From: Acidimicrobiaceae bacterium | GTDB taxonomy: Bacteria; Actinomycetota; Acidimicrobiia; Acidimicrobiales; RAAP-2 | Direction: 5' to 3' | DNA length: 64,000 nucleotides | Assembly: GCA_027315315.1 (NCBI GenBank) | Contig: DAHUYG010000043.1 | Location: 1 to 64,000 of the forward strand | Shown here: piece after piece, positions 52,666 through 58,135 of the stretch | Layout of the letters: each line of letters opens with the position of its first letter | Numbering within the stretch: position 1 is the stretch's first letter | Program-made: the position numbers and the translations under genes | The notes under the pieces: generated by a model | What the model was told of the DNA's origin: nothing | The model's database searches: none | Seen by the model: the letters and a program-made list of their open reading frames with translations, nothing else

Positions 52666-53244
52666 ATGGACTACGCATCGGCCGGTGACGGAGCGCTCGT
52701 GGCGGCCATTGGGCGCTGGCAGGACGCCGCCTTGGCCGAGGTGTTCCGGCGCCACAGCGGGGCCGTCAACGGTCTCGCCCGCCGCGTGCTCAACTCGGCG
52801 AACCTGGCCGACGAGGTGACCCAGGAGGTCTTCCTTGCCCTGTGGCGCGAACCCGAGGCCTTCGACGTCGGGCGGGCACCGCTGCGTACCTTGCTCTTGA
52901 CCAAGACCCACGGGCGAGCGGTCGACCTCGTGCGGGCCGAGACCGCCCGCCACGCCCGGGAGGAGCGGACGGCGTCGGACCGTGCGAGCGCCGGCTACGA
53001 CCTCGAACGATACGTGGCCGACCTCGCCGTCGCCGAGCAGGTCAAGGCCGCCGTCGAGACCCTTCCCGACGGCGAGCGCCAGGCCATTGAGCTCGCATAT
53101 TTCGGGGGCCGCACCTACCGCGACGTCGCGGCGGTCCTCGGCGAGCCCGAGGGCACCATCAAGTCCAGGATCCGATCGGGGCTGCGCCACCTCCGGATCC
53201 TCTTGGTCGAGCACGGCGTGGAGTCACCATGGACCGATTCGTGA
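52666..53244 (+). CDS. ECF sigma factor (SigK-like)
   Basis: 192 residues. Region 2 covers AEVFRRHSGAVNGLARRVL to TQEVFLALWREPEAFD; region 4 is GERQAIELAYFGGRTYRDVAAVL with GTIKSRIRSGLRHLR as recognition helix. The downstream anti-sigma gene begins 16 bp inside this gene, so the two are translated together. This pair arrangement and the partner's RskA-like tail suggest the SigK/RskA group. Confidence 0.92.
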   Translation: MDYASAGDGALVAAIGRWQDAALAEVFRRHSGAVNGLARRVLNSANLADEVTQEVFLALWREPEAFDVGRAPLRTLLLTKTHGRAVDLVRAETARHAREERTASDRASAGYDLERYVADLAVAEQVKAAVETLPDGERQAIELAYFGGRTYRDVAAVLGEPEGTIKSRIRSGLRHLRILLVEHGVESPWTDS

Positions 53245-54020
53245 GCCACGACGACCTCATGGAATCGCTCGGCGCATACGCGCTCGACGCCCTCGATCCC
53301 GATGAGATGGCGACCCTGCAACGACATCTAGGCGAATGTCCGCGCTGTGCAGCCGAGGTCCTCGAGCACCAAAACGTCGCCGCGCTGCTCGGCAATGTCG
53401 GGGGGGAAACGCCGGCGCATCTCTGGGACGCCATCGCCGACCGGCTGGAGACGGATCAGGCGCGGGGCCCCGATCCGTTGCCCTCGATCGGGGGGCCGAG
53501 ATCCTCGCGCGGTTCGGAGCGCATGCGCTGGACCGCTCAGGTGGTCAAGCGGCCTTGGGTGCTCGTCGCAGCGGCTGCGGTCGTGGCCATCGCGATCTTG
53601 AGCCTGCAGGTGTCGAACCTGAACAACCGGGTCGGCACGCTCAATTCGCTCGGCTCGGAGCGGAACCTCGGTCAACTCGCGCAGGGCGCCCTGGCGAATC
53701 CGGACGCCCAGAGGGTGACCCTCACGAGCGCGACGACCGGGCGCCCGGCGGCCGAGGTGGTCGTCCTGCCATCGGGGAGCGCCTATCTCGTGAACGAGGC
53801 GCTGCCGGCGCTGCCGAGCAGCGAGACGTACCAGCTGTGGGGGAAGGCGGACGGACAGCTGATCTCCCTCGGCGTGTTGGGCAATGCGCCCCGGACCGTG
53901 GCGTTCACCCTCCGGGCGTCCTCTGCCTACGCCGACTACCTGTTGACGGCAGAGCGCGCCGGAGGAGTCGTCCAGACGACACACCGACCCCTGGCGAGCG
54001 GCGGGGCGGTGGTCCGCTAG
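53229..54020 (+). CDS. Anti-sigma factor with zinc-binding domain (RskA-like)
   Basis: 263 residues. The N-terminal zinc anti-sigma motif is H33-x3-C37-x2-C40 (RHLGECPRCAAEV). One membrane helix near 103-122 (WVLVAAAAVVAIAILSL) leads to an extracytoplasmic RskA C-domain (LPALPSSETYQLWGKADGQLISLG). It would hold the ECF factor at the membrane until released by proteolysis or redox change. Its TAG stop shares the palindrome CTAG with the stop of the convergent FkbM gene. Confidence 0.92.
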   Translation: MDRFVSHDDLMESLGAYALDALDPDEMATLQRHLGECPRCAAEVLEHQNVAALLGNVGGETPAHLWDAIADRLETDQARGPDPLPSIGGPRSSRGSERMRWTAQVVKRPWVLVAAAAVVAIAILSLQVSNLNNRVGTLNSLGSERNLGQLAQGALANPDAQRVTLTSATTGRPAAEVVVLPSGSAYLVNEALPALPSSETYQLWGKADGQLISLGVLGNAPRTVAFTLRASSAYADYLLTAERAGGVVQTTHRPLASGGAVVR

Positions 54021-55075
54021 CGGGCTGCGGGCCAGGCCACCAGGTTGAGGTGGCCCTCGGGCGACCGCTCGTAGCGCTCGAGGATCTCGCTCACCGAAGA
54101 GGCCCGTCGTCGCTCCGGGGGGCCGTCGACGACCCCGATGAGGTAGCCGAGCTCCTCGAGGAGCTCGAGCACCTCGCGCCCGGTCATCTGGGAGACGGCC
54201 TCGAGGGCCGGCGGCGAGAATTCGAGGACGACGGTGGGCCGGGACCGCGCGAGCACGCCCCGCCCACCCCGGAGCACGACGCCCTCGGCCCCCTCGGCGT
54301 CGACCTTGAGCGCGTCGACGCGCCCGTCTCCGAGCTCGCGATCGAGGGTAGACACGCGCACGAGATCGTGGTTCGCGAGCTCCTTCGGATCGCCGCCGAA
54401 GCGTGAGACGACGCCGTTGGCGCCCGAACGGCTGTAGGCGAACAGCCCCGGTTCGGCCCCGAGCGCCAGCTGACGGACGTCGGCCGAGGTCACGCCGTTG
54501 GCCGCGAGGTTGAAGAGCAGCAGCGACTGGTTCTGAGGGCCGGGCTCGAACGCAATGACGCTTCCGCCCGGGCCCACGCGGCGCCCCAGCCGGGTGGAGA
54601 AGTATCCGAAGGAGGCGCCCACGTCTACGAACGTGTCGCCGCCCTCGAGCGCGTGTTCGAGGGCGCCGAGGACCTCGGGCTCGTAACCGCCCGGGCGCGA
54701 GAGATGCGGCCCGATGGCGAAGTCCTCGGCGTCGACCCGGAAGGCGTAGTCGTCGACCACGACCTCGACGGGAGCGGATCCGGTTCCCGGGTCGAGCTGG
54801 CGGGCGCGGTACTCGGGCGAGCTCAAGAAGTGCTTCACGAGCTCGTCGGTCGTCATCCCCCGCTCGATCAGGCTGAGAAAGTCGAGCGCCCCTCGCCGGT
54901 CGGGGGTCCGCCCGAGCAACAATCGGTAACAGGCCCGGAGGTCGGCCGGGGTTGCGAGCCGGGTCCCTCCGAGCAGTCGGCGGGCCGCCGAGCGTGCCGC
55001 GACCCGGGCTCGAAAGGGCACGGCGCGCCGTGCGGCACTGGCGGCGCGCCGGCGGAACTCGGCCGATGAAGCCAT
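54017..55075 (-). CDS. FkbM family methyltransferase with N-terminal DUF4214
   Basis: 352 residues. Residues about 40-92 are a DUF4214 unit (CYRLLLGRTPDRRGALDFLS...FLSSPEYRAR). The FkbM domain follows: GDTFVDVGASFGYFSTRLGR (motif I), VIAFEPGPQNQSLLLFNLAANG, DALKVDAEGAEGVVL. Such proteins methylate sugars in cell-surface glycans. It is 12 bp downstream of the LPFTG surface-protein gene on the same strand, so the two are likely co-transcribed. Confidence 0.9.
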   Translation of the reverse strand: MASSAEFRRRAASAARRAVPFRARVAARSAARRLLGGTRLATPADLRACYRLLLGRTPDRRGALDFLSLIERGMTTDELVKHFLSSPEYRARQLDPGTGSAPVEVVVDDYAFRVDAEDFAIGPHLSRPGGYEPEVLGALEHALEGGDTFVDVGASFGYFSTRLGRRVGPGGSVIAFEPGPQNQSLLLFNLAANGVTSADVRQLALGAEPGLFAYSRSGANGVVSRFGGDPKELANHDLVRVSTLDRELGDGRVDALKVDAEGAEGVVLRGGRGVLARSRPTVVLEFSPPALEAVSQMTGREVLELLEELGYLIGVVDGPPERRRASSVSEILERYERSPEGHLNLVAWPAAR

Positions 55076-55087
55076 CGCGGCGGCATG

Positions 55088-58000
55088 CTAACGCCGCCGG
55101 AGGAGCACCCCCCGTCGCCGGCGCCGAGCGCGACGCTCGAGGAGCATCGCGCCGAGACCGAGGGCGGTCATTCCCGCTCCTACCCCGCCGACGACCAGCG
55201 CCTGGAATCCGGTGAAGGGCAGGGTGCCCGTCATCGGCACCTCCGGCACCGCGATCGTGGCCGACGCGACCGGTGAGTCTGTGGTGAGCACGGCGGTGCA
55301 GTGGAACGCCGAATCGGCCTGGTAAGCGGCCGGCGCGTCCAGCTCGTGCAGGCACCACGAGTAACCGGCCGGGACCGCGAACGTCAGCACCCCCCGGGCG
55401 TCGGTCGTCCCCTCCGCCCAGAAGCGGTCGCCGGCGGGGACGACGGCCCCCGCCGGAGGGGAGGCGGGGAGCCCCGGCGGTGTCGCCTGCTCGGCCAGGA
55501 CCTCGTAGGTCGCGCCGGGGATCACGGTGTCGGGTTGCCGGGAGTCGTACTTGTAGGCCGTGATGTGGACGGTGGCCAGCTGCTCGGGCACGGCGATCGT
55601 GGTGGTGGCGGCGGGGGACTGCGCGCTCAGGATCCCGCTGCAGTGCAGCGCCGGATCGAGCACGTAGTCGGCCGGCGCCGACACCTCGAGGACGCACCAC
55701 GCGTACCCGGCCGGCACGGTGAAGGTCAAACGCCCGTCGGCGCCGGTGGTCCCGCGGGCGTACCAGGTGTCGCCCTTCTCGCTCGCGGCGTTCCCGGGCG
55801 GCGATCCGCTGACCCCGCTCGGTGGGGGTGGCCCCTCGACGTAGAGGTCGTAGGTCGCCCCCGGGATGCCGGTATCGGGGGTGAGGGAGTTGTACTTGAA
55901 GACCGAGAGCGCAAGGGTCTGCTCGGAATCGGCGAAGAAGAGCGTGGTCACCGGGGCGGGAACCGCTGTCGAGCCGTTCAGCACGCCGGTGCACTTCGAA
56001 GCGGAATCGGCCGAGTAGTTGGGCGGCGCCTGGGTCTCGAGCGCGCAGTAGGCGTATCCGGGCAACTGCAGCGGGAAGGTGGCACTCCCGTCGGCGCCGG
56101 TCGTGACGGAGGCCACGAGGGTGCCCCCGCTCGGCGCACCGGGATCCGGGAACGGCGTCGCGAAGTCCGACGGCGCGCTCGGCATGCGGTAGAGGTCGAA
56201 GACCGCCCCCGGGAGGCCGACGGCCGGGTTGGCGGCGTCGAACTTCCGTACGGCGATGGAGACAAACTCGCCGGCATCGCTGACCGTGATGGGTTGGTTG
56301 GCCTGTTGGTCGTCGGCCGTGAAGCAGCCGTTCGCTCCACCCTCGAGCCCGGGCGGGGCGGTGGTCTCGGCCCAGCAGTAGCGGGAGCCTGAGGCGAGGT
56401 CGGGGGGCGTGAGACAGCTCCCGGAGGCATCGGTCACGCACCGGCCGACCGACGGGCCGCCCGGGCTGCCAGCGAAGAGCGCGATGACCACGCCGGAGAG
56501 CACCAGCTCCGCCGGGTTGACGTTGCCGGTGGCGATCTTCTGGAAGAGCGCCTGCACCAAGCGGGGATCGCCGAAGCTGACCGAACCCGATTCGCCGGGG
56601 ACGAGATCGACCACCTGGGTGTCGGGGTCCGGAAGTGCGTAGCCGGGCGGAGCCGCGGTCTCGGTCACCCGGTAGCGACCGGGGAGCAGCGCGCCCGCTC
56701 CGTCGTTGCCCGCCGGGGCGCACGATCCCGATGCACCGGTCGTGCAGGTGCCGAGGTCGCTCCCGAACACCCCGTCGTTGGTCGGATCGTAGGCGACGTC
56801 GAAGACCGCCCCGGCGAGGGGCGCGCCGCTCGTGGCGTCGGTCTTCTCGATCCTGAGGCTCGCGGGGACGGCATGATCCTCCTCGGCGCCGGTGAACGAG
56901 GCCACCGTGTTCGTCCCGGCGACCACCGAGATGCTCTGGTCGGGTGCGGTCGCATAGCCCGACGGTGCCGACACCTCGCGCACCGTGTACTGGCCGGCGG
57001 CGAGCTGGGGGGACGTGGGCGTCGTGCCGTCGCCCGCTGTGGTGAGCGATGCCACGACCGTCGAGCCATTGAGCACGTCGAACACCGCCCCGGCGACGGG
57101 GTAGTAGGCGGTGTCGTCACCCGCCTTCAGGATCGACAGCGTCCCGGTCGTGGGCAGGGCCATCAGGTGGGACACGAAGCCGGCACTGGCCGGCGCGGAG
57201 AAGGCCGCCAGACCCTGCGCGCTGGGTTCCTTCGCGCTCGGCTCGAAGAAGTCGAGACCGAACTGGCCGATCCCGCCCGAGACCGATGCGCTCACGGTGA
57301 CCTCGCCCCCCGCGCGGGCGAAGATCGGGGCGCTGAGCGTGCCGGTGGCGTCGGTCGACTCGGTGACGGTGCTCGGTCCGGAGACCGAGTCGAAGCTTCC
57401 CCCGCTGATGGAGAGCTCCACCGGCAGGCCGACGACTGGGTCGTTGGACCCCGGGAACTGCGCGTGCAACCCGTAGGTGGCCTGCCCGCTGAAGCTCGAC
57501 CCGCCACCCATCAGCCCCCCGATGAGGCTCGGGTCACCCATCGCGCCAGCGGCCTCGAGGTACCAACCGTCGAGGGCCTGGTACGCAGCCAGCACCCCGG
57601 GATCCATGGCCGGGACGGGGCTGCCCCAGAGGGTCGCGTCGTAGAGCAGCTTCCCGGCGACGGCGGCCTGATCCGCCGTGAACTGGCCGGGCGACCCGCC
57701 CCACCAGCCGAGCGCCTGCGCCTCGCTGAAGGCGAAGCCGAGCGGGCCCGCCCCGCTGGTGTCCGCACCCCCGGGCGCGCCGGAGGGCTGGTACGCGTAG
57801 TCCGGGGCGGGGTAGTCGCCGCCGCTCGCGGGCGGATCGGCGCAGAACCCCCAGCCCTCGTCGGTCGGGAAGCCCGGCCCATAGGACCCGTACCAGGTGT
57901 TTGCGCCCGAGTAGGTCGCGCAGAAGCCGGCGAAGGGAAACGGCGGGCCGCCGACGCTGCAGGGGGCCGGGCCGTCGGCGAAGGCCGGCTTCGCCCCGCC

Positions 58001-58135
58001 GAGCCAGACCGGGGCGCTCGAGGGGGTGGCGCCGATCACGACGAGCAACGCGGCGCCGACCCGACGCAAGCGCGCCCTCGGCCGACGGCTCCCCTGGCGT
58101 CGAAGGTGTCGGCGAGGGGATCGGTGGTGGCGCAT
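55088..58135 (-). CDS. LPFTG-anchored surface protein with six SpaA/prealbumin-like repeats
   Basis: 1015 residues. Basic N-terminus and hydrophobic signal (RVGAALLVVIGATP), an N-terminal thioester-adhesin-like region (about 50-200) including WGFCADPP, then six repeats each starting with a Lys-containing strand and ending with a Glu-containing (E-x-x-A-P) strand. The repeats run from LSILKAGDD to VHITAYKYD. The end has LPFTG at 972-976, a membrane helix and an Arg-rich tail, the sortase-sorting arrangement. Repeats 3-6 carry a Cys just before the Glu and a second Cys about 15 residues later. No sortase is in the window. Confidence 0.92.
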   Translation of the reverse strand: MRHHRSPRRHLRRQGSRRPRARLRRVGAALLVVIGATPSSAPVWLGGAKPAFADGPAPCSVGGPPFPFAGFCATYSGANTWYGSYGPGFPTDEGWGFCADPPASGGDYPAPDYAYQPSGAPGGADTSGAGPLGFAFSEAQALGWWGGSPGQFTADQAAVAGKLLYDATLWGSPVPAMDPGVLAAYQALDGWYLEAAGAMGDPSLIGGLMGGGSSFSGQATYGLHAQFPGSNDPVVGLPVELSISGGSFDSVSGPSTVTESTDATGTLSAPIFARAGGEVTVSASVSGGIGQFGLDFFEPSAKEPSAQGLAAFSAPASAGFVSHLMALPTTGTLSILKAGDDTAYYPVAGAVFDVLNGSTVVASLTTAGDGTTPTSPQLAAGQYTVREVSAPSGYATAPDQSISVVAGTNTVASFTGAEEDHAVPASLRIEKTDATSGAPLAGAVFDVAYDPTNDGVFGSDLGTCTTGASGSCAPAGNDGAGALLPGRYRVTETAAPPGYALPDPDTQVVDLVPGESGSVSFGDPRLVQALFQKIATGNVNPAELVLSGVVIALFAGSPGGPSVGRCVTDASGSCLTPPDLASGSRYCWAETTAPPGLEGGANGCFTADDQQANQPITVSDAGEFVSIAVRKFDAANPAVGLPGAVFDLYRMPSAPSDFATPFPDPGAPSGGTLVASVTTGADGSATFPLQLPGYAYCALETQAPPNYSADSASKCTGVLNGSTAVPAPVTTLFFADSEQTLALSVFKYNSLTPDTGIPGATYDLYVEGPPPPSGVSGSPPGNAASEKGDTWYARGTTGADGRLTFTVPAGYAWCVLEVSAPADYVLDPALHCSGILSAQSPAATTTIAVPEQLATVHITAYKYDSRQPDTVIPGATYEVLAEQATPPGLPASPPAGAVVPAGDRFWAEGTTDARGVLTFAVPAGYSWCLHELDAPAAYQADSAFHCTAVLTTDSPVASATIAVPEVPMTGTLPFTGFQALVVGGVGAGMTALGLGAMLLERRARRRRRGVLLRRR

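Follow-up and report, generated by a model that had tools for sequence, protein, structure and literature searches.

Disulfides in described isopeptide-bonded domains

In CnaB domains, an isopeptide bond joins a lysine of the first strand to an asparagine or aspartate of the last strand, with a glutamate acting as the catalyst, and the two bonded strands are adjacent. Several domains of this type also carry a disulfide. In the crystal structure of the C domain of FimP from Actinomyces oris, the disulfide is C385-C449 and the glutamate of the catalytic triad is E452; in that of domain D3 of SpaD from Corynebacterium diphtheriae, the disulfide is C352-C402 and the catalytic glutamate is E406. 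An analogous disulfide, partly formed, is present in SpaA of C. diphtheriae. A 2025 survey (PMC12617251) predicted disulfides in 41.3% of the isopeptide domains of Actinomycetota and found them prevalent in the families SpaA_2, SpaA_3 and SpaA_4. The combination of isopeptide and disulfide, which a sequence-only reading of the locus described here had called unusual, is therefore an established one. It also occurs in single CLIPPER (DUF11) domains, although these have a CnaA-like fold and place the disulfide in the last strand, in a CTTC motif. A complete triad does not guarantee a bond, as the N domain of FimP and domain D1 of SpaD show: such a domain may still bond slowly or never.

The protein described here resembles SpaA, SpaD and FimP in its CnaB-type domains, in the predicted pairing of isopeptide and disulfide in its repeats R3 and R4, and in its LPXTG-type anchor. 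However, those three proteins, among them the major pilins SpaA and SpaD, form pilus shafts, carry a pilin motif and have no tandem run of such domains. A tandem CnaB stalk, like that of the present protein, is found in the TIE protein of Bacillus anthracis (6fwv).

Architecture of the surface protein

The window is the whole stretch of DNA that was analysed, 64,000 nucleotides from a 2.47 Mb MAG of an uncultured actinobacterium of the Acidimicrobiaceae. It encodes a sortase-anchored SpaA-repeat surface protein of 1015 residues at 55088..58135 on the minus strand, the strand of all features of this gene given below. The open reading frame, its coordinates and the count of six SpaA-type repeats are as first read from the sequence, and both Pfam SpaA (1e-47) and a repeat profile agree. 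PF17802 (SpaA, prealbumin-like) matched the whole protein in five stretches with 160.6 bits, against a cut-off of 23.1, and when repeats were searched one by one it matched 32 of 36 (E up to 0.1); a profile made from the repeats themselves recovered all six. Full-length orthologues, 64-76% identical, are present in MAGs of the same genus, titled mostly Acidimicrobiaceae. R5-R6 had no match in phage and plasmid collections.

The protein begins with a putative Sec signal peptide (residues 1-53, 57977..58135), arginine-rich and then hydrophobic, with a predicted cleavage site after AFA. An N-terminal domain follows (57532..57976, limits approximate), in which C59, C72 and C98, an odd number of cysteines, are invariant in an alignment of 16 relatives. 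This domain matched no Pfam or PDB profile, and its structure model is unreliable (pLDDT about 30-50). By eye it looks like a degenerate thioester domain; a reading as a thioester domain (TED) was rejected, as the 16 sequences contain no invariant Gln and no conserved Cys-Gln pair. At the junction with the repeats lies a weak Big_1-like Ig domain (57270..57531, limits approximate), recognized as a better-modelled beta segment and by PF02369 at 21.4 bits, under the cut-off of 34.9.

The six repeats occupy 56867..57151 (R1), 56561..56866 (R2), 56273..56560 (R3), 55922..56272 (R4), 55580..55921 (R5) and 55226..55579 (R6). They are followed by an LPFTG sorting motif (residues 972-976, 55208..55222), a C-terminal hydrophobic segment (55139..55201) and an Arg-rich tail. 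The major-pilin model SpaH/EbpB (NF033902) scored 92 bits, below its curated cut-off of 95, and a search of the protein for the pilin motif WxxxVxVYPK found no YPK.

Cysteine pairs of R3-R6

Each of R3-R6 carries a cysteine exactly three residues before its catalytic glutamate (Glu-3: C587, C697, C814 and C928, ahead of Glu590, Glu700, Glu817 and Glu931) and a second one at Glu+14 in R3 (C604) or at Glu+15 in R4-R6 (C715, C832, C946). R1 and R2 have a cysteine at neither position. The sequence-only reading had correctly given all four repeats a cysteine before the glutamate and another about 15 residues after it, but had let the first spacing vary from two to four residues, when it is always three. 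Only 15 of the 1015 residues of the protein are cysteines, and all 12 in the repeat region fall in pairs. The remaining pairs there are C-x7-C motifs, similar to C-x-T-x4-G-x-C, in R2 (C464/C472, 56720-56746, minus) and R3 (C566/C574, 56414-56440, minus), and each probably forms a beta-hairpin disulfide.

Among relatives, the second cysteine is kept in 62 of 62 domains (R3, 12/12; R4, 14/14; R5 and R6 pooled, 36/36) that had been picked by a C-x-x-E motif, so that the first cysteine and the glutamate are present by selection while the second cysteine and the other residues are not. Across 198 distinct SpaA-like domains taken from the family, the order and the phylum, 62 have both cysteines, none has the Glu-3 cysteine alone, four have the downstream cysteine alone and 132 have neither (Fisher p 4e-47, a value that ignores descent). 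A descent-aware comparison, on a tree built with the cysteines masked, yielded four independent contrasts with branch support, which all agreed in direction (p 0.125, underpowered); the unsupported tree gave 11. In two genomes of one genus (L018 and L020), R3 lacks both cysteines. Since the second cysteine is invariant in relatives and the Glu-3 cysteine never stands alone among the 198 domains, the two cysteines of R3-R6 very likely form a disulfide.

The register of this pair differs from those described. The disulfide-bonded cysteine lies three residues before the catalytic glutamate in FimP (C449/E452) and four in SpaD (C402/E406), and the Glu-3 cysteine here matches the former. In FimP and SpaD, however, the partner is upstream (C385 and C352), whereas in R3-R6 it lies at Glu+14/15, and no upstream-strand partner was found in R4-R6. 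The prealbumin-like SpaA_2, SpaA_3 and SpaA_4 domains resemble R3-R6 in having a cysteine at about Glu+13 to +17, but from their sequences its partner appears to lie shortly ahead of the acceptor Asn (V-x-C-x-F-x-N); a Glu-3 cysteine is almost never present. R3-R6 have no cysteine shortly before the acceptor, and the three families had no match in the genome itself. A further upstream cysteine in SpaA_4 loci was considered as a partner and rejected, as it is part of the preceding domain. Judged by sequence, R3-R6 would combine one cysteine position from each type, making this a third disulfide register for SpaA-type domains after the SpaD/FimP and SpaA_2/3/4 types. No earlier description of a Glu-3/Glu+15 pair was found in the open-access literature searched, which is weak evidence; what looks new here is this register, its tandem repetition and the conserved glutamate acceptor described below.

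Isopeptide triad and acceptor position

The acceptor column was located by alignment and by its spacing from the Lys of the next repeat, about 11 residues. Lysine is rare in the protein (11 of 1015 residues), and the first-strand lysines of the repeats account for six of these. In R1 (K337, E387), the candidate acceptor is D420, and this column varies between D, E and N among relatives. R2 aligns with all three residues present (K431, E492, D523). In R3 (K533, E590, D620) and R4 (K631, E700, D736), the triad is invariant in all relatives tallied, 12 of 12 and 14 of 14, as are the four cysteines of R3 and the two of R4. The glutamate of the E-x-x-A-P strand, first taken for the bonded residue, is the catalyst, and the bond would run from Lys to the Asn/Asp of the last strand.

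R5 (K747, E817) and R6 (K862, E931) have a glutamate in the acceptor position, Glu851 (codon 55583-55585, minus) and Glu965 (55241-55243, minus). Among the 36 pooled R5 and R6 domains of relatives, 35 have Glu here and one has Asp, and the Lys, the catalytic Glu and both cysteines are present in all 36. With Glu rather than Asn or Asp in the acceptor column of 35 of 36 domains, we do not count R5 and R6 among the canonical CnaB isopeptide domains, nor is a Lys-Asn/Asp bond of the usual kind to be expected in them. We dropped the simpler view that R5 and R6 have no acceptor at all, as aligning on the Lys of the next repeat places the glutamate in that column. In Cys-pair domains outside the family, the acceptor is Asp in L035 and L069 and Asn in L042. 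As such domains may carry Asp or Asn, the glutamate of R5 and R6 looks derived; L031, a member of a different family in the order, has it as well.

With the full Lys-Glu-Asp triad invariant in R3 and R4, an isopeptide and a disulfide together are credible in these two repeats. The original proposal of both bonds in one domain, made for all four Cys-pair repeats, is thus partly supported: with Glu as their acceptor, R5 and R6 are not credible cases. The acceptor of SpaD is Asn, that of R3 and R4 Asp. Two points count against the isopeptide in R3 and R4: an Asp acceptor needs the right pocket in order to react, and the complete triads of the FimP N domain and SpaD D1 bond slowly or never.

Fold of R4

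R4 was modelled with AlphaFold2 from 36 alignment rows, single repeats pooled from six proteins. The model (pLDDT 85.7, pTM 0.79) adopts a CnaB fold, with TIE (6fwv) as the best structural match (Z 13.6, 1.3 Å), SpaD D3 at Z 10.9 and FimP at Z 9.9. C697 and E700 share the strand at model residues 75-81, and C715 belongs to a bridge of two residues (93-94). The counterparts of these elements in transthyretin-like folds, strands E and F, adjoin in one sheet, which makes a C697-C715 pairing in R4 plausible.

Proposed organization of the stalk

The reading we favour, and consider reasonably probable, is that of a wall-anchored stalk in which R3 and R4 hold both an isopeptide and a disulfide, while R5 and R6 hold the disulfide and most likely no canonical isopeptide. 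After the signal peptide, an N-terminal head would be carried on the weak Ig-like domain and the six CnaB/SpaA repeats down to the LPFTG wall anchor. In R3-R6, the disulfide would tie the strand of the catalytic Glu to the one after it, closing a loop of 17-18 residues around this Glu and its Ala-Pro turn. R3 and R4 would also have a Lys-Asp isopeptide linking the first and last strands, so that both sheets of the sandwich would have a covalent lock of their own. R5 and R6 are the repeats nearest the wall and have Glu in place of Asp/Asn; in them, the disulfide would be the main covalent brace, most likely accompanied by a buried Lys-Glu-Glu cluster. Because an isopeptide already joins the two load-carrying strands, the disulfide probably confers heat or protease resistance, or holds the catalytic Glu, rather than adding tensile strength.

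The conserved glutamate of R5 and R6 is the question of main interest, and one rival reading turns on it: all four Cys-pair repeats would be doubly bonded, R5 and R6 through an autocatalytic Lys-Glu (gamma-glutamyl) isopeptide. A merely lost acceptor should drift, and this residue is Glu in all but one of the 36 domains (that one Asp), beside a Lys and a catalytic Glu that never vary; the recurrence of Glu in L031, from a different family of the order, points the same way. The CnaB bonds described are, however, Lys-Asn and Lys-Asp only, glutamate is longer by one carbon, and burial in a Lys-Glu-Glu salt-bridge cluster would account for its conservation equally well. We rate this reading of all four repeats as unlikely, and a Lys-Glu isopeptide beside the new-register disulfide in R5 and R6 is in itself improbable; if real, it would be a bond type undescribed for CnaB domains. 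No report of one was found in the open-access literature searched, which is weak evidence.

The opposite possibility is that the cysteine pair substitutes for the isopeptide in all four repeats, none of which would then form one. R5 and R6, lacking a canonical acceptor, fit this idea, but R3 (12/12) and R4 (14/14) retain Lys, Glu and Asp beside the pair, and SpaD and FimP carry both bonds within one domain, leaving it an unlikely account. More improbable still is that the two cysteines are unpaired within the domain and serve as metal ligands or in intermolecular disulfides. The Glu-3 cysteine probably faces outward, as such roles would suggest; yet the two cysteines of each domain, 17-18 residues apart, are present or missing together, no conserved metal ligands were noticed near them, and the Glu-3 position of FimP sits in an intradomain disulfide.

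Under the favoured arrangement, a full triad with a disulfide (R3, R4) stands next to a disulfide with a Glu acceptor (R5, R6) in one natural stalk, so that the role of each bond, and Glu as a possible acceptor, could be tested inside a single protein. Domains of the R3-R6 type could also serve as tag/catcher scaffolds.

Genomic context

A single sortase was found in the genome (MAG about 92% complete), and it is of class F, whereas pilus sortases are of class C. Given this one class F sortase and the missing pilin motif, the protein more likely stands as a singly anchored stalk than as a pilus shaft. At L003:162-1989 (+), the sortase gene has as its neighbour a gene for a surface protein that is rich in Cys and carries a GVDTG-type sorting signal and repeats of Gln-Cys-Asn-Gly.

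In Actinomyces oris, VKOR restores the oxidised state of MdbA, the oxidase that folds pilins (PMC9974433). The genome has one VKOR gene, and the gene immediately before it encodes a DUF929 protein with a CPFC motif (L004:300-1974, +). A search of the MAG for a DsbA/MdbA-like Thioredoxin_4 protein found none at E up to 0.001. We infer that VKOR and the CPFC-motif DUF929 protein could oxidise the repeat cysteines.

A membrane-protein gene lies upstream, beside the surface-protein gene, in all five named relatives. On the other side, a gene for an FkbM-family methyltransferase with a DUF4214-like stretch (54017-55075, minus) begins 12 bases past the surface-protein gene, and divergent genes for a sigma factor and an RskA-like anti-sigma factor lie further downstream (52666-54020, plus). 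The methyltransferase gene and the sigma/anti-sigma pair are syntenic downstream of the surface-protein gene in three of the five relatives.
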